This document shows positions 1,374 to 49,000 of a DNA stretch of 64,000 nt, one piece after another. Made by a program: the position numbers and the translations under genes. Position 1 is the stretch's first letter. Every line of letters starts with the position of its first letter. The stretch is from contig CAIIXF020000007.1 in NCBI GenBank assembly GCA_903813345.2, forward strand, positions 15,174,714 to 15,238,713, given 5' to 3'. Under the pieces are notes generated by a model. It saw nothing but the letters and a program-made list of their open reading frames with translations, did no database searches and had not been told where the DNA came from. Source of the stretch: Owenia fusiformis (Eukaryota; Annelida; Polychaeta; Sabellida; Oweniidae).

Positions 1374-4300
1374 TGTTTTGCTTCCAAGTCTAAAGATGAG
1401 CTGGGACGGGACATCGAGAACTGGGGGTGCTTTGATAAATATGAGCAGGGTCAGTTGAACTGCAGGACTCCTCCATCCAACAGGGTGGCTATTATGTGTT
1501 GTGAAGGAGAGACATGTAACAGTGGCCTGCAGCCTCATTACTTAGAAACACCAGGTATGTGCCCACTAGTCACCCTACATCAGGGGGTTTGTCTTTATCA
1601 TCCCTGAACATTGGCGTTTGTGCCTAATTTTGCTGTACAATGGTTGGTTTTGTGCCTAATATTCAAACCCACATTAGAGGATTTGTGCCTCATGCTTACT
1701 TACAGATTTGTGCCTTATACTTGCCATTTATTAATGGCATGGGGCAAGTATTAATACTCTAATACTAATACTGTCTATGCTTAAATGGCAATAATGGGCT
1801 ATCATATGTGGCTTCATAAATCACACCTGTGTTGTTCTTGTGGTGGCTGTACTCAAGGCAAGTAGTCCCACATCTGCTACTTTTCAATTCGAATAGATAC
1901 CTTTAAATTTATTTATTTGAACTGATTACTTGCATTGCTCAATGCACTTTCTTTGTAATAAACATATCAATTGTTAATGCATGTAGAGACACATGTTCAC
2001 AAGAGATGTTAACATGGTTCATAATGGAGCTACAAATGGAGAAAAAATGTAAATGTCCGATCAAATGTGTAAATTGCGTAGTCCATCAATATATTTATAT
2101 GATAATTCAACATTGATGTGAATAAAAAGCATTGTGGAATAATATCTGTATTGGATAGTATGTAGTTGAATAGACAGATTTATGAATGTTATGACATGGC
2201 AGCTATCTTTCAAATAGTGTTTACAGTGTATCACTCAAGATTGACATACAATAGATATTCAAGTCATATCGCTTTGCATAGAAATGTGTATCGATCTTAA
2301 ATCAGTTGTTACCTTTAATTTATGAATTACAGATGTTTGTATGTTTAACATTATTCTGCAATGCAGAGGAATCCATGCCAGCTTTGATGAGGGTTTATAT
2401 CATTTATAATATATGCCACATCAATGATTTTGGGTGATATCATATTTTCAACAATGAATGGAGACTTCAAACATTTTTTTGAGTGGCTAAAAATGTTATC
2501 ACACAAATCAAATGATATTAGATTTATTCCATAATTTCTCTTGGAATATTTTTCAAAATTGAATATTTTAAATCACCACACATTGGTAGAATGTATACTA
2601 TTAGTACAATATACATTTGCACTAGATATGTACCATTATATCAATACTTGTTTCTCTAATAGCATTCATGATCAGAGGATAATTGTGTATAGACAGGTAC
2701 TTTATATTTGCATGTATTGATAGATTCTATAGTTATAGCTATTTTATATTGATTAGATTTCTGTTGCGAAATTGTTATCCAAATTTCTTTATTTACAGCA
2801 ACTATCCCTGCCAACAACACTCAGATGGTCGACTCCATGCAACTGGCACTAGCCGTCATTGTTCCATTTGTTGCCATGGTGATTATCATCCTGATCATTG
2901 TGTACTGCTGTCGTAGATGGCACAGGCGTCGTATGGATGTCCTCAATGATAGGGAGGCCCAATTGTACCTGTATAATGGGGAGATTCAGGCCACCCAGGT
3001 GGGGGATAGTACACTACAGGATCTGTTTGACCACTCTTGTAGCAGTGGTAGTGGTTCAGGTCTCCCTCTCCTGGTCCAAAGAACTGTAGCCAAACAAGTC
3101 AGTCTTGTAGAATGTATAGGTGAGATATATGTCACTATGAGGACATTTGAAATACACATTATTTATTTGTCTGAAATAATGCTCATTATTTTTCCATTTT
3201 ATACCATTGGTCTCAGCTCTTGCTGGACTTTTGCTTCTTTTTGAAGAAATTTGCTCTTCTTCTTAGTGAGTTCATCAAATGGTGCCATTGACTCTCCAAA
3301 GAGCACACTTAAGTGTATACATTCAAAACTATCTTCATCTTTGTTTCATCCTTCATGTTGCAGCGATACAAATGCAGTTTAAACAAATGTGATCAATAAA
3401 GATTTTGGTCTTGTGTGTTGAAAATAGTCAAGAGTGTTTCAAAATGCATTCACCAAGTCTAGAAACATCCATATGACTCTTTGTTTTGTTTCCAGGTAAG
3501 GGTCGCTATGGTGAGGTATGGAGGGGGACCTATCAGGGAGAAAATGTGGCAGTAAAAATATTCTCGTCTCGAGATGAACAATCCTGGGCGAGAGAGAGCG
3601 AGATATATAACACAGTGCTATTACGTCATGAGAACATTTTAGGCTTTTTGGCGTCTGACATGACCAGTAGGCACTCCTGCACCCAACTCTGGCTCATTAC
3701 ACACTACCATGAACATGGTTCCCTTTACGACTTTCTCACCCGAACAGTATTAGACCGTCAGAGTGTTCTGCGACTAGCACACACTGCAGCTGCCGGATTG
3801 GTTCACCTTCACACCGAGATATTCGGCACCCAGGGGAAACCAGCAATTGCACATCGTGACATCAAATCTAAAAACATTCTTGTAAAGAAAAACTTGACTT
3901 GTTGTATAGCAGATTTAGGTCTGGCTGTCATGCACTCCCAGACCACTAATAAAATAGATATGGGAAGTAACAATAAAGTAGGAACCAAGAGATATATGGC
4001 TCCTGAACTACTGGATGAAACAATGAATCCTGAGTGCTTTGATTCTTTCAAGCGTGTTGATGTATATGCATTTGGCCTGGTGCTTTGGGAGATCACTAGA
4101 AGGTGTTCTATATCTGGTAAGTCAGGTTTAAGCCTTCCCAAGAGCTCAATCTTGTCTATACTCCTCAATTTAGAAATAACTCTTTATTATACTAGCCCAA
4201 GCTCCAGTTGAAAATTGAATTAGAAAATTGCTCCTTGTTTCTTCCTGCTTTCATTTCAAGGATCAAATATAGCCAAACAGCCTTAGTTTGGTTATATTTG

Positions 4301-5733
4301 AGGAATTATGATTTCTGAGCTGTAAAATAATTTATGCTAGTCAGAGGCTAGTGGCTAACTGATGGCAATTGAGCATGGTTGGGTGCAGAATCCAGATGCA
4401 AATTTTGGAATATACCACTTGCTGTTCTAAACAAATCGATTGCTTTCATGAAGGCTTAATTTAGCTCAGTCTGGATGAGAACTTGTTACAATGCTGTTAT
4501 AAGACATATGTTCTATGTTCTGTACGTTTTTTTTTTAAATTCTTGTAATATTGTGGTTTTTGCATGTTTTCTCATCAGTTCTAAAAGTAATTTAAATTCA
4601 ATTTCATCTTTGATAAATGATTTTGACGTTGAATATTTGAGTGTTTTTTTCCCAGTATAAATTACATAGTAACTCCGTGCAACACAATAGTGGCTATTCA
4701 TGATATTTCAAACATTAATAACTTACATTATTCGAAGGTTTAAAAATATTAGTATAGACAATTTTATCTGTTCTTTTCCTCTAGATTTAAGGAATTTATC
4801 AGTAATTTCAAAATTTTAATTTTGCCAACTTTTCACCTGAACAAGGAATTGAACACAGGACCTCATACACCAGATGAATGCACACTACCACTGAAACAAC
4901 TTTGAACAATGTGGTTATATGGACCAATTCAATGAAATAGAAGAATTTGAAAATTTTCAGTTTAAATGATGCTACGTTGGCTGGCAAATGTACCTTGAAT
5001 CTTAGTAGTGCTCACGACTAAAATAGACTGCTGAAACCCCATATATTTTGATATTATTTCATTATATCATTATATATCATGATATCATTATATATTATAT
5101 TATTGCAGGTATTGGTGAAGACTACAAACCTCCATTCTATGACTTAGTCCCCAGTGATCCTAGTTTTGAAGATATGAAAAAAGTTTGTGTAGACGGGCAA
5201 CATAGACCCAGTATACCTAACAGATGGTCAACTGATACAGTAAGTACAACATCCCAATTGTTTTCTTTGGTTATTGCCTCATCAAGGGGGAGACCAGTCT
5301 ATTTTTCCCCTTCAGTTGTTCCTCTTCATATTAGAGGGGGCTCATGAATGACACTTGTTTGAGTTGATTTTGGAAAATCATGATTCATTTTAATTGACTA
5401 GTTTTGTCTGTCATGCATTTCAGGAACATTTTATATGTTGTAACCATGTTAATTATGACAAAATAGTTATTCATCTCGACACAACCTAGCTACCTGTTTC
5501 TTGAATCATGAATGGTTGTACTTTATAGCAGAACATTGATTGGTTGTGCAATAACCTACTTAATCTATGATTGGTTGTTTCAGACATTGACAGCCATGGC
5601 CAAATTAATGAAAGAATGTTGGTACCAGAACCCTGCAGCCAGACTCACAATGTTGAGGGTGAAAAAGACAGTAGGAAAAATGCTCGAAAAAGAAACTGAA
5701 AAAGAACATAGCATCGATATCATTAAGACCTGA
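1374..5733 (+). CDS. ACVR1: Activin/BMP type I receptor serine/threonine kinase, ALK2 (ACVR1) class, 3' five exons
   Basis: Membrane receptor kinase that phosphorylates BMP-pathway SMADs after activation by a type II receptor. Exons are 1374-1554, 2799-3119, 3496-4116, 5109-5239 and 5584-5733; phases join and give 467 codons plus stop. Exon 1374 encodes the end of the cysteine-rich ectodomain (GCFDKYEQG, then CCEGETCNS). Exon 2799 encodes the transmembrane helix ([20 protein letters not shown]), a basic stop-transfer and the GS box ([15 protein letters not shown]). Exon 3496 holds most of the kinase: glycine loop GKGRYGEV, lysine in [19 protein letters not shown] in place of DFG, and MAPELLDE. 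The last exons finish the C-lobe ([13 protein letters not shown]). Tracts such as [14 protein letters not shown] and [15 protein letters not shown] place it nearer ALK2/Saxophone than ALK3/6 or ALK4/5. The position of human ALK2 Arg206 is lysine here (TVAKQ), as in other type I receptors. The first ~50 residues are missing. Confidence 0.93.
4833..4900 (-). repeat. tRNA-derived SINE head in an intron
   Basis: Read on the minus strand, the segment has an A-box-like TCAGTGGTAGTGTGC, an anticodon-arm-like TCAT...ATGA with a 7-nt loop, and a B-box-like TGTTCAATTCC at the expected spacing. It lacks a good acceptor stem, so it looks like a decayed tRNA-derived SINE head rather than a working tRNA. 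It lies in the intron between receptor exons 3496-4116 and 5109-5239. Confidence 0.45.
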
Positions 5734-8580
5734 GAGGAGTTTCATATGTACTCTGCTTGTGCATTATAAATGTCCAGAGGTCCAGGATGTTGCCTCCACC
5801 TGAAGGGTTATCACAGGGCCCCTAGTCCAACCACTGAGAAAGTCTGGACAGATAAGAACCAGAGAACCATGAGTGATTAGTAAACACTAAACAGACATCT
5901 ATGGACTGCTGTAAAACTGTTATAGTAAAGGCAGCCTAGAAAGAACTGTTCAGAGGTAAACAATCTGAAAGGATTCATCTGCACCTGAGGAATACCAAAC
6001 AGTCAGATATTAACCATACTGAAGTTATATGTTAACAGAGACTGGCTAGCTGCTATGTTTTAAGTTACTACCTATATACATGTAGTGTATATGGGACTGT
6101 CTCAGCATTGCACTCCTTGACATCGATCTGCCTGGATGCAACCCATGCACACCAGGTTACAGTTTATGTACATCAGCTAGAGTTCATGTACATAAGCTAC
6201 AGCATGTACATTGACTAGAGTTCTTGTACATCAGCTACCATGCATGTACATTAGCTACTGTGGGCTACAGTGTACCTACAATGGCTACAGTATTTGTAAA
6301 TCACCTACATAGCTTGTACATACGCTACAGTACATGTACATTAGCAGGTTCAGGAAGTGCAAATGTGCAAAGAACAATATCTATAAGTATAGATGGCAGA
6401 ACAGGTGTGATATGCAGGAATACTGCAATTTGGATTCTTTTAGATAACAACACAACTTCCTAACCCATAACAGCCAATATAATGGAATAATGTGGATCTT
6501 CAAATCCTTGATGAATTGAACAACGAACCCTAAGTCAGAAATAGTACAAAAGTATATTAAGAGAATGCTGTAATAGCTTACTTAGGTACAAAACAAATGA
6601 GAAATGATCTGATGTGAGAATCTCCATAAGGCTGTGTGCAATGGTAAAATGTTACTCAACATGCAGTTCATACTAAATAAGAGTTGTGTAATGGTGGGTT
6701 TTGGATATAGGATTTATTTTGAGATATGTATAATTCCTGAAAAGGAGCCCACTATCCAATATCTACCATTAGATAACTGATTTATCCTATACTAAATTAA
6801 TGAAACTAAAGTGATTTACCACAAATAGACAACACCAATAAGTGGGCAATATAATTTTATCTCCAAGGGCTTAGAAAGGGAAACCCTGTTTAAATCATAC
6901 AATCATTTTCTTCACTTTTCTTAGTACCCCCTCTCTTTACTTGCCAAGTGTGAGAAAAAAGTACTGGATATCAGATATGCATACCACATCATACCAAGAT
7001 CTTTTATTTATTCACCATTTTAACAAGCAATTCAACTAAATGTGATGATACCACAGTGGCAACCATTTGTAACATAACTCTGTTGTGTCACACAATGTAA
7101 CATGAATACATTATGAATGAAATGTCCAATGGGGTCATTAAAAGATAGCTTTACCATTCTACAGAACCTATTAATTATAATTTATATGTTTATAAAAATG
7201 TAAAAAATGATATGAATATAAATATGTAAATAAGATCAGAAATAATTCCTCCTCTATGTTTGTAGTGTATAGAGACTTAAATTAAGTACTGAAGTCTATA
7301 GTTTCATGTACAGTTGATTTTCTTCTTGTATATATTCCATAGTTTTGTGAGGGAGTGTAGACCCTGGTGCTTAGAAAGTAGTTGTGCCATAGAATAGAAT
7401 CCTATCTTCCTTACTTGAGATTAAGCATCTATCTTCCATGCAGAGACAGCTTCAATGCTTCTCAATACGTCATACAGATCTGCTATGGTTTTATTCTCAA
7501 TCGACAGATCATTTAATGTTTCAGGATCTTTTTGAGATAGGGAACATTGCTATAAGACTGAAGAAAAAAATCATCAATGCAAAAAGATTTTTGGTCATCA
7601 ATTCAATTCACTCATTTCAGAAAAAACATTTTTTGTCAAGATGCTGAGAAGGTTCAGTCTTTGATATTCTAATGGTCTGTCTGATTTAATACCCTTTTTA
7701 CATATGAGAATATTCATGGAGAATTGACATGAGAAACAGTTAAAAGAAAAATTACAAATAATCCTCTTGTAGAATCCCAATCACAGTTTATGATTCAGAT
7801 CAGACTAGTCTACATGGAATGAGAAATATCATGATATGTATGTATATCAACAGTCATTGTATTCATGATTCATTGTAATAACAATACTACTTGAACTCCC
7901 ACCCTCCCATTACCTCTGCCATGTTAGCTTAAAGGCATACACAGGCAAACTACATCAGGACCTATACCATGTTTTAATAGCCATTATATTAACTCTTAAT
8001 TTCTAAGTTTTGTAATACCCTGTCATTACAAAGTCAATATGTTGCTGTTATACTTGTGGCTTGTACAACCTTGCTGGGACTAAATATAATTTGCCTGTGT
8101 ATATATCTTAGCAATTGTGAAATAATTTATTTCGACCCCTGTATTAATACCTGCATATCTATAATGTATGACTGACTTAATGTATTTGGTAAAAAAGGTG
8201 CACTATTGCTCAAGCATTCATCACACTAGTGTAGTTCAAACATTCTAACCCAGAAATATTTGAGAAAAGTTTGCTCCCAGAATAAATTATTACAATAAAC
8301 TATATGATAATATAGATCTCTGTTTAAATTAGGAACATTTTAGTTAACACGTGTCTGTGGTCAGAATTGTATATAACCTTGAGTGACCTCTCTTGTATAT
8401 ATATCAAATATGAGCATGTCACACTACACACTACATGTTAAACATGTGTCTCTAGAAAGTAGGTCAGTTTATAATTTACATAATGTATCAAAGGGCCATG
8501 GTGGTTTTCTCTAGCATGTTTTGATTGATTTACTAAGTCCCTCAGTCTATCTACTTTACCCTTAATCTAGAGCACTGTGA
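5734..8580. other. 3' flank/UTR of the receptor gene, no further gene seen
   Basis: AT-rich sequence following the receptor stop codon. Part is presumably 3' UTR, but with several AATAAA-like hexamers no polyadenylation site can be assigned. No reading frame here resembles a known family. Confidence 0.5.
6155..6350 (+). repeat. Short-period degenerate tandem repeat (TGTACAT..AGCTACAGT)
   Basis: About eight imperfect units of roughly 20-27 bp built around TGTACAT and AGCTACAGT, about 420 bp after the receptor stop codon and so probably in its 3' UTR. Spacing varies, as in an old minisatellite. Confidence 0.7.
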
Positions 8581-14530: not shown

Positions 14531-24212
<9,682 letters not shown>

Positions 24213-32300: not shown

Positions 32301-35300
32301 AATTCTTCACAATTATTGTTTTTTATAAAAATGGCCACACGCAAATGGACTATCATACTTATCAATACCAAATTTGCCTCCTATATTGTATACCCATTGC
32401 TATGATTTGAAAAAAATAATTTTTTATCAAACTCATCTTTTTGATGGTTGCACCTTGGTGCAAGCCGTTTAGCCCTTTCGTGTCACCTTTTTGAGTGCAG
32501 ACAAGTAAAAATGAATAGTTGATGGACCAATCTATAATGATAATGGGTCACTTCATAGTAAGCTACCACAACATAGGTTTTTGTGATTTTCTGGGGTTTT
32601 GGCACACACTATATAGGGAGAATAAGTTAGCACTGTTTTTAAGCATGCGAATGTGAGTAAAACGATGGTCTTCCGAGCCTTTACTTTAATAATTGAGTTT
32701 GAAGGTGTAAGCTTACTTTTATAGACAATTTACCTCAGTTATTTTCTGTAAACAAAGCACTTACTTTATATTTCTTGTGCTCAACTAATAATATATTATG
32801 AATAGGTATGTATGTAGTCTTAAAATCAATCATATAAGGAGAAAACCTTACTTGAATGGACATCTTGGATAGATGATGTCTTTGTGCTCTATTTCATCAA
32901 GGATTACAATCTCATTGGTTGTGTTATTTATACGACCTGTCAATTCAAATAAAAAGTTTAAGTCAATAACACTCTGCAATTTGATCATTGATCACTGGAA
33001 TGACCTTAATGATAAAAACAAATCTATCCTATAACATGTATAATTTATTAAAAAATATTTGAAAACTCAGAATTAAATAATTAATTACAGAAGGCACTAG
33101 GACTAACACTGAACTACATAGTCAATTGGCTCTTCCATATGAACACTAGCAAGTATATCTTGGATACCCAGTTTCCTGGCCTCCGTTCAAGTTAAAAGTA
33201 CATGTACAGGAAAACTCATCAACTTGAACACCCCTTGAATATGACCACCTACATAGCCTCTATAGGCTTTCTATAGGTTCTCTATATCTCTATAGCCTGA
33301 ACACGTTTCCTTGAGTCTCTTTTCAATTCCTCCCATTAACTTCCCCACTAGATCCCTCTCTACAATGAACAAATTTTGCTGGGTCTAAGAAGCATTTACT
33401 CTGTAAAGACTTTTGTATTGTGCATTTATCTGAATTGCTAAAACGCTTACCTCTGATAAGCCTAGCAGCAAATTGTTCTCTAATCTTTGTTTTGATCCAG
33501 TCCCGAGAAATCTCACTTGCCGTGCATTGTTCTCCACCAAATATGGTCTGGTACTCCATCTTAGCGCTGAGTTGCACATAGTATGGCTGGAAGTTGAATA
33601 TCAGTATTGAAGTAGGCCTAGCATAAAATATCATAAATCAATGCTAGGCTATGTAGTTATCTCAATAAAACCAGATTTGTATCAGTAACGAAAAGCAAAG
33701 ACCCATTACCAGGTTTATCTTGTAAATTTTTGAATAATCTTAATGAATTTTTGTCAAGCAAATGAAATCTTAAATATTCAACATTAAAAAGTATAGGCCT
33801 AGATATCAAAGTTTCCGCTGACTGATTATCAATAATTGTAAATTGAAAGTATAATCTTCATATCATTAAAATCTAAGGAGTTTAAAATGAAGATATATAT
33901 TCAGCTGGTGTAAAAGGATGTAGTAAAGAATGCAACCATTGCTTGTATCAAATTAATAACTCGTGTACAGGCTTGTGGCTAGCTTTTGCCAATGGGGTTC
34001 AATTTTCAAAAAATTCCAGGATCTGACAACTTTGGCACAAAATCACTTGATACAGGCTTGTGTACCATATTTAATTACTTTCCAATTCTCCCTTTAATCT
34101 AACCCAGCAGGCTCACCTCTTTCCTATACTGTCTGATGAGGCCATGTAGAGCACAGCGAACCATCATGCTGAGGTCACCTAGTTTCCAAAGGCTGTATGT
34201 CAGCTGGTTGTCTGCTACTGAGTGGTAGTTCTCTGCACTCTCACATGTCTCTATTGTGATAGGATCTTGAAATGTACAGAAAATAATACACTCATAATGA
34301 GGCTTATATAGTATACTTGAATTGTCCTTTCGTATTTATGATAAATGTGAAAAATATACATGTATAAACAGGGGCGTCCCCAGGAAAAAAACAACAATAC
34401 ATGTCGTTCTTCTTCTTTTGTCAAAAGCTGTTCATCAAAACAGGACAACCATATATGGGTTGAGACTTATGAGGTATTCCATCTAGTCTAGACCATTTGT
34501 CATATATTTTATCTTTCATTTTAAAATAAAGCAAAGCAAAGTATCTAATACAGAATGCTGATGCGACCACTACAATATGATATTTACCATGTATCTTCTG
34601 CTTGGCTCCCTGACCAGATGTGTCAGTGTCCTGTTTGACACCTTTGGCTGCTTTGTTAGCTCCTAGCTTGTACATCTTCTCCTGATCCAACATGATCTGG
34701 TCCATCATAGAAGACACTGACCCTGTGGCAGGCTCATTCTTGATATCTAAGTATGAACACATTCAAAATTGTAGTACAGTAAAACTGAAGTGGAACAACT
34801 TTGGTACCTCTAAAAAGTGTACCACTTTGGAGGTGTTCCATTTATAGAGGTTTGTTTAACATTAAGTCAATTGGTCTTGGGACTCTGAGAGAAAATTGTT
34901 GCACTAACAAAGGTGTTCCACTTCTAAAGGTGTTCCACTTTACAGGTTTCACTGCACTCTGTTCAGACTCTGTAATAACTGAGACAGGAGAAAGTACAGA
35001 AGCAGAATACAATCCATTGTAATCAATCATGTGTAAAAATGATGTCCTGGAGGTAAATTTCGAATGTACTCTTATTCATAGTTCCCCATATATAGTGTCT
35101 TCGATATCGTCTATGACAACAGAATCTGAATTTGATTAATTTAGAAAGACAACGGCATGTACATATAGGAAGAAGAAATGAACTAAGATCTTAAAATACC
35201 AATATTACACAACATACATATACCTCATACCAATTTACCTTTTTTGATTTGCTTTACTTTTTTCATCTGCATTTTATCTTCTTTAATATTACTATCTTGG

Positions 35301-38300: not shown

Positions 38301-41300
38301 TCCTTTTTAAAACAACAACCCATATATATGAGGTGTCACGGATACCCGATTTTGTTCCGATCCACGGAATTATGCCCTCGGAACGGAACATGGAAGAATT
38401 TCGGTTCGGTTCCGGAACAAGAACATTTTACCCTTTCACAACTTCTGGCCCTTGAATCTCCACAAAACAGCATTTTTCTTTCAATATTTTGTATCAAAAG
38501 AGGTTCATTCTTTTTACTCCTTCTCTTTGAAGAGTTTTGAAGAGCTTTTCGCAACCAAATAGACCTAGATGATCAGATTATTTTAGTCTCCGCAGTCACT
38601 CTGTTCCGAACCGTTCCGAAATTGTTCCGTTCCGAAGCAAAATGTTCCGAAACGAACCGTTCCGATTTTTTTTGTTCCTTGACATCTCTAATATGAGGTG
38701 TGGACCAGACTTCCATTAGGGTATTCATCTCTCAAAATTAATGTAACTTCAAGAAAATAAACAATGAGTAAAGTTTTTTGACAAGTAAATTAGTACAGTA
38801 GAACCTGTGTAAGTGGAACACCCTCCGTTCTGCCAAAAAGCGTTCCACTTAGGAGGTGTTCCACTTACGGAGGTTTTGGGTTCGCGGGAATTTTAACAAC
38901 ACACAAGACTGAACATAGGGTTTATATGTATCACAGAAAATACGATTCTCCATTCATTGCAGGGCAGCTATATACCATTAACTATCCATTTGTTTTACTC
39001 AAAAAGGTATCGGACATTCATAATCCTCCTCATTCTGCCAAAAAGGTTTTCTGACATTTGTAATCCTACTCATTCTGCCAAAAATGTTTTCTGACATTCT
39101 TAATCCTCCTCATTCTACCAGACTCAGGCACAAAGATTTGGCAATTAAGTTTTAAAGACTTGTTCCTACTGCTAATAATTCATTTGTTTTTAACTGACAT
39201 TCTTAATCTTACTTATCAAGTTTGAAACAAACAGCAAGGGGTATTTATTAGAGGTAGCATCACTTGTCCATCTCTACAGGAGGTTAATCCAATTTGATGA
39301 ATGATAATCTTATGAAATCCTTATTCGCTAATTATCAAATTAATTAGTGGTAGCATCACATCTTGATCTACCGGAGGTTAATCCAATTTGTATCAATATT
39401 GAAATTTATGGAAAATTGACTGTTCCACTTAGCAGGTTAATTTTCCGATATGGGGTGTTCACTGTTCAAGTTTGGAGGTGTTCCACTTACAGAGGTTCAA
39501 TTAACATTAAGTCAATGGGATTTTAAAACGGGACTTTGAAAAAGTGTTCCACTTGCGAGGTGTTCCACTTTCGGAGGTGTTCCACTTAGCAGGTTCTACT
39601 GTATAGGGAAAATGGAGCAAATAGGCAATATAAAATCATGTTACAAATATATTATCAAGACCTTTTGAGTATTTATACCTTATCTCCCCATCCCATAATT
39701 GTATTGGTACCCCCCAACACCATAATTGTATTGGATGTGTTCATTGAGGAAAGACTAAGGTACCTGCATGTAAGTGTGTATGCCTGGTGCCATAGATGTA
39801 TAGTCCTTTTCTGCAGCCATAGCATTCTTCTCGGAGTAGCGGAGAAATTCCTCTTGCTCTGGACCGACCTTCATCTGAAGTTCCTGAAAGTGAAAATATA
39901 CAGTAGAATATAAATCTGTGTTTGATGTATGCCTTGCTTGGTAGATTTATAAGTGGCTGCAAAACCTGAAATAAGTAGACAATATCAATATCTAAAAATA
40001 TGTGGAGCATTGAATGTGATATATCTTTTGAATTGTCTTTGTTTCTCTGATTCACTCTTCTATATATGTCTATATCTATGTCCATGTCAATAATCTGTGA
40101 AAGGCTAATAAGCCCACTTAAAGAAGATATATAATTTTACAGTGATAGAATTTGAATAAAATAGAATATGAGCATTAATATTTAAAAGTAACCCCCAGGC
40201 TACTGCATTGACATCTCCCCTATTTACCAGTACCAGTTACTGGACATATTTTAATTTGCATAACTAATAGTAACATAAAGGTGATATGAAAATTGAACCA
40301 CTAAAACAGATGAATATTAAGTTAAAGGGGACTTTCTACTATACCTGCCATGCTACATGTATCTGACCCAAGTGAGCCACCTGGTGGTGAAAGTGGTAAC
40401 TACCTACTCGCATCTGATTGATTTGTGAATATCCAACCAATGGCAGAATTAATTTCTAAGTTGTAATCATATTTTGCAACTGGAAATTACAAACAACATA
40501 CTTGCCAAATATTTTGTTGTGATTTGAATTGAAACCACCCTATCTTCGTTTCCAGAGTTTCTCCCCAGTCCTATACCTTACTTGTAAAAGTACAAGTTTG
40601 TGGATACATATTCCAAATAACTTATATCGAAAGCTCTCTAATGACTTACTCTAAACTTATTGATCTGAACAATCTCCTGTGGACTAGGCTTCTGTGGCAG
40701 GTATGTGAGAAACGTGTTATACAGCTCTATGTAGATCTTCTGCTCTTCCTTAGTGAGAGATGACTTCCGAGGATAAGGGACATATGGCTGGTATAGAGAT
40801 TTGAACACTGTATGTGTCATTTTCTCAACATGGGGAAACTTTGGTGCAAGTTGTTGATGTTGTTGTCCTGGTGTTTTTAACTGTTGAGCAGTTGTCATAG
40901 ATACTGGATGTGTTGATGCTTGATGCACTGTTGGCTTGGATGCTGGTGCTTTATTGCCAATTGTCTTAGATTCTTGTGATTGTTGACCTTTTGTCATGGA
41001 TAGTGGCATTTGTTGAGATGTAACAGAGACTGATTGATCAGTTGTTGGCATAGTAACAGATGATTTTTCTCCTGAGGTCCCCTCAAGCTCAGATCCTATC
41101 TCTACACTAGGGCTGTAAGCATTTCAAATAATTTTCAGATTGTATAATTACATGAACAAGTAAAATATACGAAGAAAATGTCATGAGTTCAAAGAACTAT
41201 AGCCTATATTGCCAGGAGCAAGTCAAGATTTTTGAAATTCTTTATTCGATTCATTTATAATTCAAACATGACCGTGCTATATTTGAATTTCTAAACCAAT

Positions 41301-44300
41301 CAGAATGCAGCATAGGCAATAATGACCGTTCATTATTTCTCCATACAGGCCGATTGTGCTCTATTCTATCTGCTTCTAGGAATCGATGTACATACATGTA
41401 TATTGTGTTGTGTTATGACGTCACATCTTGGAATGGCGAAGCGGCAGAAAATTCTGTTATTCGGTTCGTGCTTTGTACGACATTCTGTCCAACTCATGCT
41501 GAATTTCACCATATTGAATGGTCTATCATTATCTATTCCTTAATTTAAAGGGATGTTTTATACCAACAACTGCATGGTGATATATTAGGTAATAATAATA
41601 AATAACAATATCGAAGTACATCAAATGTACCATACTTACAAAACTTCAGATTGAAAGCCATCACCAGTTAATTCATTGATGACATCAGTTTTCTTTACTT
41701 CACCAGTTAGAGTTCGTAAGGCCTGCTGTTTAGTCTTTGTCTGTGTGGTGGTAGCCCAGGACTTACTAGCAGTTCTGTGTAAGTTCTTGTCTTTGCTATT
41801 TCTTGTCTGATCATTTTGGTTGAGTACCTCTTCATGTTTGGCAATAAGGCTATCTTTAAATGAAATGCTGAGTAATGACTTGTTTAAGGAGTCCCTTGTG
41901 AAGAAGTTGTCTTGGCCATTGAGAGGTGGTTTATTCCTGGAAAAATTATTATAAATGTTATTGCATTACATGTATATTAAGTCGCTGCTACAAGATGTTG
42001 ATGATAAGTATGCGATTAAGGTCCTTAACTGACTATTGAGCAGTCAGTTCACGCATCCTAAACCAATTTTGTCATATTCAATCTCCTTGATACCAGTGAT
42101 TATAATCAAATCATTCATGGAATAAGACATTAAAATTAAATGGCAAATTCATTAATGGCAAACTTTAATGGCAACATATCTTCAATATTTTTAGAAAGAG
42201 CTTTTTAAGGGACTCATCCTCGTTCCTAATTCATTGAGACTTAAAGGATGTACATAACTAACTATCTAGGCCTTAAAAACACTTTAATAGTTATATATAA
42301 CCTAATTCTGAAACATGCAATTCCCACACTTTAATACTGAGATTCAATTATTTGAAAAAATTCCAAAACAAAAGTTTTTTACCTTTATTGACTACAAGTA
42401 TTGACTTGTATTTCAATAAATATATTAGAATAAAGGAGAGTTCATAATGACCTTATGCACTTACAGTTTACTGAAGAGTAGAATATTCAATAGCAAATAG
42501 TTTTGAAGAACGTTACATTTTCTGGTAAATAAACATATTTTGTATGAAATACAGGAAGTTGCCTACCCTTCTCTTGAAAGCCCATGGCATACAGTAGTTC
42601 TATACATTGGCAGGAAATACTTATAATAGAGACATACATGTATTAAACATATATAAAGTGGGGTGCAAAAATAAATCTCAACCCTCAAAAATTGTCACAA
42701 TGAGCTAAATTCTAAATTTCGTGTCTCAAACTCTCCCAAGCGGTAGAAAAATAATTCCTTAAGTAGTATTGCAATACCTGCAAAGTTTCATACCTGCAAA
42801 TGATGGATAAATCCCTACCAAATCAAACGAATGTTTTCATGAATCGCCATGTTTGTGATCCAAGGAGGATTGACTCCCAGAATGCAACATCAGGTAACCT
42901 TATTTACTCGTGACAGATTTCAAAATGGCGGAACGGCATTTTGAAAGCTGACACGTGTAATGTTGCATTCTGGGAGCCAATCCACATTACCACGTAATCC
43001 AGCTCCAAAATCACCTCAACATTTGAAGAGTCGGCATTAACATGTGATTCCACTTCAAATGTTAAGGTTCTTATTTGTCATTATGACCACGAATTCCACT
43101 ATATCTGGACTTACTAGGACGGAGAAAATAGAGCACTGAATACACTGAGGTAAGAATTTATTCCATGTGCGACAGCGGGGTCAACCCAGTTGTCCGAAAC
43201 CCAGTTCTCCGAAACCCAGTTTTCCGAAACCCAGTTGTCCGAAACCCAGTTTTCCGAAACCCAGTTGTCCGAAACCCAGTTCTCCGAAAATTAGGGGATC
43301 TTATTTGAAAAATACAATTTTTTAAACGAATCTCGTTGTCGCAACCTCTGCGAATCACAACATAAAATTGGAATAACGTTGACATCATTGCAAAATTAGG
43401 CTAAATATGCTAAGTCAAGACGTTAATTGTTTAATGTTTAGCCTACGAAAGTTCATATACAGGTGATATAGATGTTCAAACAAACAAAGTTAAATTATGT
43501 TATTCTCATTGTAAAATGGCGTTTACACAACATACATAGATAGGGGTCTACAATTTTTAAACCAATTTTCTTTATGGCCCATGAGCCTTTTTTGAGAGGG
43601 AACAACATTTTTCCAATGGGTGATGAGCGTTCATAAAGGGAAAAATAGCTTTCCCAAGCCAGTGGGCATTTATTTAGTAAGTATTTAGTTATGTACATCT
43701 TTTGAAACCAAAACTTATTCTTCATTTACGTACTCTGTTCGAGAAATAGAGATTAAATTAAAAGGATGAAGTGAGCACATGGCGAAAATGAAACTTCTTG
43801 CGAATGGGAGAACATCCATTTTGATACGAGGACAGCCTGCCTTCGTTTCCAGTTTATCCCAAGTGATTAAGTTATGAATGTTTTGTTCTTTTACGATTTG
43901 ATAGAATACAGAGACTAAGAAATTAAATGCGACGAAATATTTTGACAACGTAGGCTAATATGTATACTGTTTTATTCTTAAAGTACTATAATATGCGTAA
44001 ACTTATTTTATCTGTTTCAAAATGATTCATTTTATTTTGCCTATATAAAAGAGATTGAAGAAGATAAGATAAACTGTTCCGTAATATATATTGTGTTTTG
44101 ATAACCTTTTTTTAGAATCACAATGTAAAATAAATCCCCCGTTCCTGCCATTCTGGTAACGCGTGCAATGGATGCAATTCAAAGTGAGAGAGATCTATGA
44201 ACATCAGAATGCGTCCATGCCATTAATTTGGCCAAATACATGGCATGAAACTGGCCTAAGCTTAGTACGTCTCCCCTTTCTCTGGTAAATTATGACTATA

Positions 44301-44697
44301 TTTTTCGGAGTAATGGGTTTCGGACAAGTGGGTTTCGGAGAACTGGGTTTCGGACAACTGGGTTTCGGAGAACTGGGTTTCGGAGAACTGGGTTTCGGAC
44401 AACTGGGGTGCACCCGCGACAGCATGTAATTTCCATAGCTTTTGTAATTCTTAATGGTTATGTTTTATATGTCTCTGCTTGTAAGAAGCAAGAACTTAGG
44501 TTGCTACCGATAATATTGATTGATCCTTGGAATGTGCACTGAGTGACCAATGTGTGAGTGATGCCCTGTTGTACTTGAATTTTGGTTGTGGAAAAATGGA
44601 ATCATTGCTGATTCCATTTTTAAAAGGAAAACTTTGGTGGGCGATAATAGGGTTTCTAAAGTTTATCACATGCTTACCATTCCTCTGGCCACGCCAT
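26339..44697 (-). CDS. ICE2: Little elongation complex subunit 2 (ICE2/NARG2), complete, 17 exons
   Basis: Nuclear scaffold of the little elongation complex, which supports RNA polymerase II transcription of snRNA genes. Exons in transcript order: 44697-44678, 41936-41640, 41112-40650, 39883-39764, 38226-38089, 37804-37679, 37343-37184, 37017-35874, 35429-35239, 34746-34588, 34250-34117, 33586-33451, 32936-32852, 28435-28385, 27670-27590, 26893-26748, 26445-26339. All phases join, giving 1185 aa (human about 980). Diagnostic tracts: DNFFTRDSLN near the N-terminus, YVPYPRKSSLTKEEQ (human VPYPRFSRFSQREQ), EIEDLETFGTD, then in the conserved C-terminal domain YSLWKLGDLSMMVRC, KMEYQTIFGGEQCTASE, VGEYLLSHEAGE and WIPVDPNTFLPWQKKYNRIP. 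The tail is basic (KSKAKKNRKRARKGKG). The middle (exons 37017 and 35429) is charged and low in complexity, with AT-hook-like KRGRPKK and TRGRAKG. Exon 1 is only 20 coding nt and is inferred from phase, start context and similarity. Confidence 0.92.
27139..27520. mobile_element. Foldback/MITE with TAGAGGTGTCAC ends and GGGTCGGGTCAG repeats
   Basis: Left end TAGAGGTGTCACAGGTC, right end GGCGTGACACCTCTCGG. Inside, GGTCGGGTCAG units on the left face inverted CTGACCCGACCC and GACCTGACCCGAGCC on the right. It abuts ICE2 exon 27670-27590, so its right end is ~70 bp from a splice donor. The element at 38328-38700 has similar ends. Confidence 0.65.
28547..32611. mobile_element. ~4.1-kb composite palindromic element in ICE2 intron 13
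   Basis: Outer ends are TAGTGTGTGCCAAA and TTTGGCACACACTA, with TA at each edge. The outer arms (about 28547-29040, and inverted about 32070-32611) share long tracts such as CTAAACGGCTTGCACCAAGG and GGCTCACACAAGGATCAACT. Two further partial arms lie inside: an inverted one at about 29195-29350 and a direct one at about 31690-31960. The order is therefore arm, inverted arm, ~2.3-kb centre, arm, inverted arm. No transposase recognised. The centre holds a GGTCA-rich tandem array. Confidence 0.8.
29825..30545 (+). repeat. Tandem array rich in TTTCAAGGTCA, unit ~100-140 bp
   Basis: Degenerate units with the order GTGACC(TGAGGTCAAGGT), ATTTCAAGGTCA, ATATCTA, TTTGGCGTTTT, TTGAGAACAATT. TCAAGGTCA or CCAAGGTCA occurs at least six times, at about 29976, 30091, 30182, 30266, 30359 and 30470. 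It forms part of the centre of the 4.1-kb palindromic element. Confidence 0.8.
33970..34070 (+). repeat. Fragment of GTAGCCAG-type repeat
   Basis: GCTTGTGGCTAGCTTTTGCC, GGGGTTCAATTTTCAAAAAATTCCAGG and TGACAACTTTGGCACAAAAT match the better copies at 45190-45310 and, inverted, 47480-47625. Confidence 0.6.
34775..34958. mobile_element. CAGT...AACCTG mini-transposon, copy 1
   Basis: Starts TACAGTAAAACTGAAGTGGAAC and ends GTTCCACTTTACAGGTTTCACTG, inverted. Internal GGTGTTCCACTT units and ACATTAAGTCAATTGG are shared with the copies at 38794 and 47064. It lies in ICE2 intron 9. Confidence 0.75.
38328..38700. mobile_element. GAGGTGTCAC-ended element rich in GTTCCG
   Basis: Left end GAGGTGTCACGGATACC, right end ...TTCCTTGACATCTCTAA (inverted GAGATGTCAAGGAA). 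The left interior has CGGAACGGAACATGG and CGGTTCGGTTCCGGAAC; the right has CCGTTCCGAAATTGTTCCG. The ends resemble those at 27139-27520. It lies in ICE2 intron 4. Confidence 0.6.
38794..39603. mobile_element. CAGT...AACCTG mini-transposon, copy 2 (full length)
   Basis: Ends TACAGTAGAACCTGTGTAAG and CTTAGCAGGTTCTACTGTA are inverted, with TA at each edge, spanning ~810 bp. It has many GGTGTTCCACTT units near both ends and a shared ACATTAAGTCAATGGG. The centre has a threefold repeat around CATTCTTAATCCTCCTCATTCT. Located in ICE2 intron 4. Confidence 0.8.
40320..40435 (+). repeat. Dispersed repeat with a second, inverted copy at 59.3 kb
   Basis: GGGGACTTTCTACTATACCTGCC, CACCTGGTGGTGAAA and GGTAACTACCTACTCGCATC occur here and, reverse-complemented, at about 59312-59410. 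Located in ICE2 intron 3. Confidence 0.7.
42868..42986. repeat. Inverted repeat around GATTG.CTCCCAGAATGCAACAT
   Basis: AGGATTGACTCCCAGAATGCAACAT and ATGTTGCATTCTGGGAGCCAATCC are near-perfect inverted copies 70 bp apart. Probably part of a small foldback element in ICE2 intron 1. Confidence 0.65.
43177..44415. mobile_element. Non-autonomous transposon with 7 + 7 inverted 15-bp arrays and 8-bp target duplication
   Basis: Flanked by GCGACAGC at 43169-43176 and 44416-44423. After a short end (GGGGTCAA on the left, GGGTGCACC inverted on the right) come seven tandem copies of CCCAGTTNTCCGAAA (43185-43289). At the other end there are seven copies of the reverse complement TTCGGANAANTGGGT (44304-44408). 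The ~1-kb interior is AT-rich; its minus-strand frames (43495-43948) show no transposase motif. Element length is 1239 bp, inside ICE2 intron 1. Confidence 0.88.
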
Positions 44698-46021: not shown

Positions 46022-49000
46022 ATGTCAGATGAAACAGAATTTGAAAGTACAAACTTTAAAGTATTTGTTGGAACATTAGTTCACTCAACATGGGACATAC
46101 CAATGGTTATACTAAAAAACAAAGTAATTGGAATAAAAGGAAGGAAGGTAAATATATAATGATATAAATCTAATTTCACAGGTACTACTGTATATATAAT
46201 GGATCAAATGTACTTTAATTACTGTAGCATATAACTGTATATAATATAGAAGACTTCAGCTAGAAACTCCATAAACGTTTAAATTATGAAATTTTTATTA
46301 CTTATACTAATTATTTTAAAATTTAACACTGAGTTGTAATTGGGGTAATATTTATCAAGTTACATGTTGTGTTATTCTTATAATAATAAATGATAACATA
46401 AATAAAATCAAGGCAAATTAACATGATGAGATTAATGTATTTTCTATGATTATCATAATTATATAATTAAATGATGGAAACTGCTAATATTTTTTATATT
46501 TTCATGTTGATATTTATGCAATAATATGGAAGAGTAAAAGGTTCAATGAGATATTTTCCTATTTTTGTGAAAGTTTAGAAGTACAGCGCACCTTAATAAA
46601 CGTTTGGTACAGCATGGGTGCTCTAGAAAATATTTGTCTAAAGAAACTTGCAAACATGATCTTATCATGTTTGATTTCTAGATTTTCTGAGTGTACAACA
46701 AACAATGATTCTTACCATTGTTATAGACTTTAAATTAACACCTGATTAATTATATTTCATAAAATTTCAAAGCATAATATTACTTGGGAAAACATATAAA
46801 GCAATGTTTAAGTAGGTGGTGATATTCAAAACTAATTCTGCCCCCTCCTCCCCCATTTTGATATTATTGTTAATATTGTCACTGAGCATGTTTGATTTAA
46901 AGCTGCGTGTACTTTTAAATATCACTTCATGATCAACTATTTAACATGAAGTAACATGATGATTACATAGTTTTATCACACAAGCAAGAAATGGTATAGT
47001 TAATGATTTATACAATTATAAATAATGCAATCATCGTTTACAAGTCAAGCAGATATACATGTATACAGTGAAACCTGTGAAGTGGATCACTTCTAGAAGT
47101 GGAACACCTCTGTTAGTGGAACACTTTTCAAAGTACCAAGGCCAACTGAATTAATGTTGAACACCTCCTAATTGGAACACTTTTTTAAAGGTACCACTAC
47201 CAAAGGTGTTCCACTGAGACAGGTTTTACCGTTACATTTGTTTCTCTCATGGTAAATAAAAGTGTCAATATACTTGTACATTTTTGTCCTTAAAGAGCTG
47301 TATTGCTTTATTTGAATTATCTGTTTATTTATTACCTTTATCTCAGGATAATCTTTATTACAGTATTATGAGGCTTAATAATAAACACAAAATGATAAGA
47401 CTCGACAGATGTATTTATGACTTGTGAATGAAGAAATATTAAAGTGTTGGTATAGTGGTACCATGATAGTTCTCAGGCCCTTTGCCAAAGGGTGAGATTG
47501 GGGGTTCTTTCAAAATCATGCAATTTTCACCATTTTTAGCACTTTTCAAGTGATTTTGGGCCAAACTTGTCAAATGTGAACCCCTCTGGAATTTTTTGAA
47601 AAGTAGCTGACTACAGGCCTGGTTCTATATCAATTATATCCATTCCTGCATTTACACTATGGTTTCAGGGAAGAATCTGAAAGACCTTGACATCTGTAAA
47701 ATAGACCTTCTATCGAACTACATTTTTGGAATTTCATTCAGATGAATGATTATTAAAACAAAGTTACAAAATTATTGGGATTTAGACCCTTATTTATATT
47801 AAATCATTCGTAATCATTATTGTAATAATACAATAATACAAAATACAATACTAATTAATAATGTTTCAGATTGTGTTTATTGAGGAGGCAGTAAAACTTG
47901 ATGAGCTACAATCTCTCTGGAAGTTCTCAATCAATAATGTGTGTCTACTCTCAGATAGGTATGTGCCCCATAATGATTAATTTGGTTACTTAAAAGCCAG
48001 TTGTTATTGGGGAAAATTTTGTTGCACTTTATTATTTTTATAGTATCATGTCAAAATATCACAATTTTAATATTTTGGACACACATCATCCATTGTATCT
48101 ATCTCAATTTTAGTATTTTGGGCACATATTATTCCTTGTATCTTTCTCAATTTTAGTATTTTGAGCACATATTATTCCTTGTATCTATCTCAATTTTGGT
48201 ATTTTGGGCACATATTATTCCTTGTATCTTTCTCAATTTTAGTATTTTGGGCACATATTATTCCTTGTATCTTTCTCAATTTTAGTATTTTGAGCACATA
48301 TTATTCCTTGTATCTATCTCAATTTTGGTATTTTGGGCACATATTATTCCTTGTATCTTTCTCAATTTTAGTATTTTGGGCACTTATTATTCCTTGTATC
48401 TTTCTCAATTTTAGTATTTTGGGCACATATTATTCCTTGTATCTATCTCAATTTTGGTATTTTGGGCACATATTATTCCTTGTATCTATCTCAATTTTAG
48501 TATTTTGGGCACATATTATTCCTTGTATCTTTCTCAATTTTAGTATTTTGGGCACATATTATTCCGTGTATCTATCTCAATTTTAGTATTTAGGGCACAT
48601 ATTATTCCTTGTATCTTTCTCAATTTTAGTATTTTGGGCACATATTATTCCTTGTATCTATTTCAATTTTAGTATTTTGGGCACATATTATTCCTTGTAT
48701 CCTTATTTGAAGAGTTTTAGAGATATTTTGTATATCAATACATCTATGTTCCTGTACAAAAGAGATATGATTTTCATTTGTAGTCAGTTTCTTATGCCAG
48801 GCTTAGTGGACACTCACATCCATGCATCACAGTATGTCTATACTGGCACAGCACTGGACCTTGGCCTCTTGGAATGGCTGGAGAAATACACTTTTCCCAT
48901 CGAGTCAACCTTTAAAGACCTCAAATTTGCTGAGCATGCTTATACCAAAGCTGTTGTAAGTTGGAAATACTTTTTAAAGGAAAAATACACATGAAAAAAC

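Follow-up and report, generated by a model that had tools for sequence, protein, structure and literature searches.

Transposons with 15-bp tandem arrays as inverted ends in the annelid Owenia fusiformis are probably non-autonomous Mutator elements

We analyzed a 64,000-nucleotide stretch of the genome of Owenia fusiformis (assembly GCA_903813345.2, contig CAIIXF020000007.1, positions 15,174,714 to 15,238,713 of the forward strand; hereafter the window), in which a 1239-bp transposon occupies positions 43177–44415. Direct reading confirms the anatomy given in the original prediction, which had been made from the letters of the window alone: seven 15-bp units at one end and seven inverted units at the other, short end sequences outside them, and an exact 8-bp flanking duplication. 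The left target-site duplication (TSD) GCGACAGC lies at 43169–43176 and is 8 bp long in this copy and 9 bp in most others. End motif A, GGGGTCAA (43177–43184, forward strand), was read directly and in the genome copies, and is followed by the left array (43185–43289, forward strand) of seven units CCCAGTTNTCCGAAA, in which N, followed inward from the outermost unit, reads G, C, T, G, T, G, C. After the interior (43290–44302), which was compared with longer relatives, comes the right array of seven inverted units (44303–44407, reverse strand), located by direct reading, Tandem Repeats Finder (TRF) and a unit scan, with 2 and 1 mismatches in its two innermost units. End motif B, GTGCACCC (GGGTGCAC in inward reading; 44408–44415, reverse strand), and the right TSD GCGACAGC (44416–44423), both read directly, complete the structure. 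TRF scored the arrays as 15 bp × 7.1 (score 186) and × 7.0 (score 168), and a count allowing up to 3 mismatches gave 7 and 7 units. A 10-bp palindromic motif, GGGT-NN-ACCC, spans the end and the start of the array on both sides. Motif A and the first CCC of its array contain GGGT-CA-ACCC, with the two central bases unpaired; motif B and the next CC form the palindrome GGGTGCACCC, in which the central bases (GC) are paired.

The element has many relatives in the 498 Mb (525 contigs) that we searched, and all genome counts given here are lower bounds. A whole-element search yielded 678 candidates. Among the best 40 of these, which were scored, 36 places (the window's included) span at least about 1,100 of the 1,239 bases at 92–100% identity, and the remaining four are interrupted. 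The exact two-unit pattern has at least 1759 matches (898 + 861) against 0 for a reversed control, so the 15-bp unit pattern is not a product of chance. End A with its first unit is matched exactly at least 235 times and end B with its first unit at least 138 times. The end A matches listed reach contig C5 and the end B matches listed reach C9; pairs were drawn from these, and among the matches listed, A and B ends paired by eye span about 0.7 to 13.6 kb. Longer relatives carry both ends of the window element, with extra sequence typically between element positions 210 and 281, and window positions 43177–43386 and 43457–44407 match the two ends of several of them at about 80–89% identity. The 1.2-kb form is probably an internal-deletion derivative, and comparison of copies of 2.1–13.6 kb points to a single parent, about 10 kb long or longer, from which many internal deletions may derive.

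We read 57 copies, chosen rather than drawn at random: 37 of the 40 top-scored places, three interrupted matches having been dropped, and 20 further elements taken from the array, interior and end listings and picked mostly for length. TSDs were scored in 55 of them; one end of L047 and the right end of L046 lie outside the pieces read, and the right-hand unit scored for L046 is spurious. Exactly 9 bp, flush with both ends, was found in 43 copies and exactly 8 bp in five (the window copy, L022, L026, L031 and L057+58). Two more match at 8 of 9 positions (L023, L043), and five show neither: L004 and L039 (in each, one terminus unrecognised), L016, L042 (7 of 9) and L045. A duplication of 9 bp is the rule for the family, and the window copy is among the few with 8. 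Mutator-like element (MULE) families make TSDs of 8–11 bp, mostly 9, according to excerpts of three published accounts (PMC5225508, PMC3169594, PMC6446971), and the 43177 family falls within this range. In the 8 bases outside the array, 53 of the 55 copies have motif A on one side and motif B on the other, each matched in 6 or more of its 8 letters. Thus the transposon with arrays as its inverted ends that had been proposed is supported by both boundaries and flanking duplications: across copies the boundaries coincide with the arrays, and the copies, of varied length and with both ends in common, form one family. The 8-bp duplication expected of the other copies proved to be the minority form.

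The anatomy of the family recalls MULEs described in other animals, whose published accounts are cited here from excerpts. In Aedes aegypti, ten of 12 MULE families with long terminal inverted repeats (TIRs) carry 9–15-bp subterminal tandem repeats (PMC5225508). Among them, Muta5 combines a terminal motif of 8 bp with nine subterminal repeats of 15 bp and a TSD of 8 or 9 bp, and Muta1, a type 2 Foldback that moves in yeast, has a 10-bp imperfect palindrome with the fifth and sixth bases unpaired; the two have TIRs of 151 or 145 bp with nine subterminal repeats and hundreds of non-autonomous derivatives, with a variable repeat number in Muta1 (PMC5225508). As far as these excerpts go, the 43177 family is like Muta5 in its 8-bp terminal motif, 15-bp subterminal repeats and TSD of 8 or 9 bp, and its 10-bp palindrome with unpaired fifth and sixth bases is that of Muta1. 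It differs from both in unit sequence, in an inverted match of about 117 bp (in the window copy), in copies that reach 13.6 kb, in lacking a known autonomous copy and in having 8 bp as its minority TSD. Tm1, a Mutator/Foldback element of root-knot nematodes (Meloidogyne), has asymmetric terminal motifs outside 13–15-bp repeats, a 9-bp TSD, repeat numbers that vary and are unequal between arms, members resembling miniature inverted-repeat transposable elements, a GA-rich inner motif, and a Phantom-like transposase with FLYWCH and MULE domains; the excerpted account gives 39 and 22 elements (PMC3169594). The 43177 family shares the asymmetric end motifs, 15-bp repeats, 9-bp TSD and unequal arms of Tm1 as excerpted, and differs in its unit and motif sequences and in its at least 235 exact ends, as against 39 and 22 elements. 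In the TU elements of sea urchin the outer domain of the inverted repeats is a 15-bp tandem, the TSD is 8 bp and the length is modular. Our literature searches found no paper on these elements, although the Tetris paper cites a sea-urchin foldback element (PMC4079207), and a literature text search with five unit strings gave one match, which was unrelated.

MULE transposase genes lie inside ends of a similar kind in this genome. A Pfam MULE domain search of the genome found eight places and protein searches added more; 17 MULE loci were read. In seven of these (L059, L060, L061, L064, L065, L066, L067) a gene or remnant lies between inverted 15/16-bp arrays, with only 2 units on one side in L066. 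Arrays are one-sided or ambiguously arranged in four (L068, L080, L081, L082), the remnant of L082 lying just outside the main inverted pair, and absent or present as a trace only in six (L062, L063, L079, L083, L084, L085). The genes that array-ended elements carry here are those of MULE transposases. An open frame of 617 amino acids in L059 and one of 599 in L060 have FLYWCH and MULE domains above the Pfam cut-offs; the MULE domain also exceeds its cut-off in L061 and L063, and FLYWCH was found in L063, L064 and L065 and not in the L061 frame. The pairing of an N-terminal FLYWCH finger with a MULE domain is what the Phantom/Muta subclass would show. The motifs DGTF, DFE, GCxFH and NN..EGxH, which correspond to the D-D-CxxH-E motifs of MULE transposases, occur in order in L060 and L061, with three of the four in L059 and two in L063. 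Read by eye, exact 8-bp duplications flank L059, L060, L064, L066 and L067, and none was seen at L061 or L065.

Some features of these loci may recall Rehavkus, a MULE relative of annelids and arthropods that has a PHD finger, a 9-bp TSD and, close to one end, a minisatellite; Rehavkus-1_TC has tandem arrays of a 164-bp unit in its inverted termini, again according to excerpts (PMC6446971, PMC10218199). There are weak PHD matches in L059 (E 0.0012, below the Pfam cut-off) and L060 (similarity to Pygopus-PHD, E 0.0008), and a 31-bp minisatellite reminiscent of that of Rehavkus stands in 8–16 copies beside the FLYWCH–MULE gene of three related loci (L063 4858–5105, L064 1982–2474, L065 2293–2570). 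The likeness is by description only, and the FLYWCH domain, the 16-bp families with their 8-bp TSD, and the 164-bp unit of Rehavkus-1_TC set the two apart. Beside the MULE gene of L063 lies a 328-amino-acid open frame (5388–6371, forward strand) that by eye resembles a mariner-type transposase.

A second element of similar build lies in the window at 15943–17150, with end motifs GGTAACCG and GGCTTACG and TSD CTAGTGAA at 15935–15942 and 17151–17158. Its left array (15950–15997, forward strand) has about 3 copies of the unit GGACAACTCATCCCCT and its right array (17003–17143, reverse strand) about 9 copies of GGATGAGTTGTCCAGG. The 43177 and 15943 elements had been proposed to define a structural class with short-unit arrays as inverted ends, and this class is real in the O. 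fusiformis genome; the length of 1208 bp, 16-bp units and 8-bp duplication given for the companion also held, but its arms are unequal. In 11 non-autonomous copies of the 15943 family (ten and the window's own), the TSD is exactly 8 bp in eight, matches at 7 of 8 in two and is absent in one. The 16-bp unit GGACAACTCATCCCCT and the end motifs GGTAACCG/GGCTTACG also occur at L064 and L065, with 76–78% identity to the 15943 element over about 535–557 bp, one array included, and the interiors of these two loci hold interrupted genes with FLYWCH detected by Pfam and a MULE region by tblastn. Because these MULE loci carry its unit and ends, the 15943 element is, judged from its sequence, a non-autonomous MULE and a relative of the L064/L065 transposons.

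For the 43177 element, we compared ten 41-base end sequences in 16 pairs and scored them against nulls. L061 contains a 15-bp array (2496–2585) whose terminus both 43177 ends resemble, in a common inward orientation, with z of 7.1 and 7.7 and a score reached by 0 of 5000 nulls. By eye, this terminus is nearly that of an array in L068, to which the 43177 ends are similar more weakly (z 3.5 and 4.0; 1.2% and 0.8% of nulls), and a MULE fragment lies about 280 bp beyond the L068 array on its inner side. At the L061 MULE locus, the left outer end also shows weak similarity to the 43177 ends (1.1% and 3.3% of nulls). These likenesses are suggestive of a sequence link between the ends of the family and MULE loci, short of proof. 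Matches to the L068-type 15-bp array also recur in 60-bp steps over about 0.5 kb at G000 C12:26717803-26718326, a pattern that might reflect the conversion of a transposon end into a satellite.

We conclude that the 43177 element is probably a non-autonomous cut-and-paste Mutator transposon of type 2 Foldback build, and that its family is most likely a new one of a described kind. The assignment follows from the 9-bp TSDs, the anatomy shared with Muta5, Muta1 and Tm1, and the likeness of the ends to an array beside a MULE fragment. It is supported by the seven of 17 MULE loci that lie between inverted 15/16-bp arrays, and by the MULE-type genes of L064 and L065, which share the unit and end motifs of the 15943 element. 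The ends of the 43177 family start with GGG, which fits the G/C found in the first three bases of most arthropod MULEs in the excerpted account (PMC13359780).

Several observations weigh against this assignment. The matching array in L061 faces away from the MULE gene of that locus, and therefore belongs to another element; only its resemblance to the L068 array ties it to a MULE. The score of the L068 match, one of 16 comparisons, is reached by about 1% of nulls, and L068 showed no second end. Between the 43177 ends and those of the 16-bp MULE families, similarity is at chance (0.18–0.74 of nulls reach the score), and the 8-mer AGTTGTCC common to the 43177 and 16-bp units runs in opposite directions. 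No MULE transposase was found in any copy with 43177 ends among 58 family loci: tblastn with three MULE proteins gave two weak matches there, at E 0.04 (L045) and 0.5 (L041), and Pfam scans of L046 1–9999, L047 1–9500, L057 from 1001, L058 1–3341 and L051 3300–8289 found no transposase. Apart from a C2H2-finger frame in L057, these scans, which did not include L045, returned translated arrays or weak matches attributable to chance (pentapeptide, extensin, lamprin, Focal_AT). The five largest of the copies read (L045, L046, L047, L051 and L057+L058; 7–13.6 kb) revealed no transposase-like frame of the family, and none of the 17 MULE loci has an array of the 43177 unit, with stray single units of up to 2 mismatches in L060, L067 and L068. 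As end pairs were taken from the matches listed, a 43177-type copy with a transposase may have been missed.

Other sequences lie inside some copies. In L007, a stretch of about 1 kb (about 2684–3666) occurs at 93–96% identity in more than 20 other places; we rejected it as element interior, since it is a separate abundant repeat nested there. A 131-amino-acid open frame with C2H2 zinc fingers in L057 (8537–8929, reverse strand), inside the 13.6-kb element, is possibly captured host sequence. By eye, on translations of the repeats, the 7-kb 43177-type element L045 (6655–7042) also contains the type of array that bounds the L061 MULE locus on its right (L061 6428–6757), which suggests that one array-ended element inserted in another.

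The same lack of a transposase in the 43177 family favors a Foldback-like element of another superfamily, of P/Galileo type or Merlin, whose array ends would have arisen by convergence. P elements make TSDs of 7–8 bp, and those of Merlin can be 8–9 bp. A TSD of 9 bp is thus atypical of P, and the 43177 terminus resembles a 15-bp array type beside a MULE fragment. Galileo, of Drosophila, does show that array-bearing ends exist within the P superfamily (PMC3573991, PMC3688188); in the excerpted accounts Galileo and Tetris have the Foldback build seen here, with units of about 210–220 bp as against 15 (PMC3573991, PMC4079207). No transposase of any kind was found in the Pfam-scanned parts of the long copies, and the genome was not searched for P or Merlin. 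We regard such an origin as unlikely.

The 7 + 7 units of the window copy had been read as a sign that the arms are copied or homogenised together. We compared arms in the 53 elements that have a single A end and a single B end. The A arm has 2 to 14 units and the B arm 3 to 14, often unequal within an element, so that the inverted ends consist of tandem repeats in variable number as in Foldback elements. Besides the window copy itself, pooled data give some support to a process that equalises the arms: their lengths are correlated (rho 0.42, p 0.002), equal arms number 13 against 7.8 expected (reached by 3.1% of shuffles), and unit variants aligned from the inside are slightly more alike than in shuffled arms (0.561 against 0.516; 1.9% of shuffles). 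Aligned from the outside, the variable base is no more alike than in shuffled arms. The correlation is not significant inside either size class, with rho 0.15 (p 0.39, n 35) for the 1.2-kb elements and rho 0.39 (p 0.10, n 18) for the long ones. Among the 1.2-kb elements, 41.5% of shuffles reach the observed variant likeness when arms are aligned from the outside and 8.2% when aligned from the inside; among the long ones, 87.8% and 13.7% do. The companion element at 15943 has 3 and 9 units. Since neither arm correlation nor variant likeness is significant inside size classes, the equality in the window looks coincidental and is most simply due to chance; joint copying or homogenisation of the arms is improbable. 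In arrays of at least 5 units (49 per end, with units of up to 3 mismatches counted), mean mismatches at end B are 1.57 in the innermost and 0.08 in the outermost unit, and turnover there therefore seems to lie nearer the outside; the corresponding means for end A are 0.16 and 0.02.

The original prediction had assigned the 43177 element to hAT. hAT insertion produces an 8-bp TSD, as found in the window copy and four more of the 55. The 9-bp duplications of 43 copies, with 8 bp the exception, together with the MULE genes in gene-carrying elements of similar build, lead us to reject this assignment as very improbable; no hAT domain was found in the Pfam-scanned parts of long copies, the genome itself not having been searched for hAT families. 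Finally, the repetitive nature of both arrays and interior would fit a segmental duplication, or a repeat flanked by satellite, that is no transposon at all. At 48 of 55 sites, however, the ends are precise and the duplication is exactly 8 or 9 bp, which rules this reading out to near certainty.

If the 43177 family is moved by a MULE, as we infer, the transposase would act in trans and bind repeatedly along the 15-bp arrays. The precedent is Galileo, in which, as excerpted, one binding site near the end has been footprinted and further sites identified in the terminal tandem repeats (PMC3688188); by analogy, the array units may be transposase binding sites. The transposase would then bring both ends together, cleave at the palindromic end motif and integrate the element through a staggered cut of 8–9 bp. 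The length of one array would vary irrespective of the other, with slippage during replication or unequal exchange as the probable cause, and the 1.2-kb form would have arisen with its ends from the parent of about 10 kb or larger by internal deletion.

Elsewhere in the window, short 16–17-bp arrays with a GTTCCACTT-like core lie at 34897–34939, 38842–38874, 39544–39587 and 47079–47126. Two of the four face an inverted partner 7.6–8.3 kb away, and they are perhaps the ends of another array-ended family. A window-wide scan for inverted short-unit arrays found the 43177 pair and weak 17-bp candidates only; it missed the 15943 pair and is hence blind to irregular arrays.

Several MULE lineages in this genome carry their own 15- or 16-bp unit, and some units share cores, also in reversed form (AGTTGTCC). 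One speculative and, on present evidence, rather doubtful idea is that the arrays form a co-evolving lock-and-key system, in which each transposase reads its own unit and the switching or inversion of units founds new families. Non-autonomous families such as that of 43177 would then persist by keeping many copies of the unit of a transposase, and the transposase that moves a given family would be predictable from the unit sequence. These results change the superfamily proposed for the 43177 element from hAT to Mutator. They also indicate that array-ended MULEs, described in a mosquito and in root-knot nematodes, are abundant in this 498-Mb genome as well, where there are several families with different units, copies of up to 13.6 kb and, for some, transposase genes. 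O. fusiformis may therefore be a good system in which to ask whether terminal repeat number sets the efficiency of transposition, and how transposase and array co-evolve.

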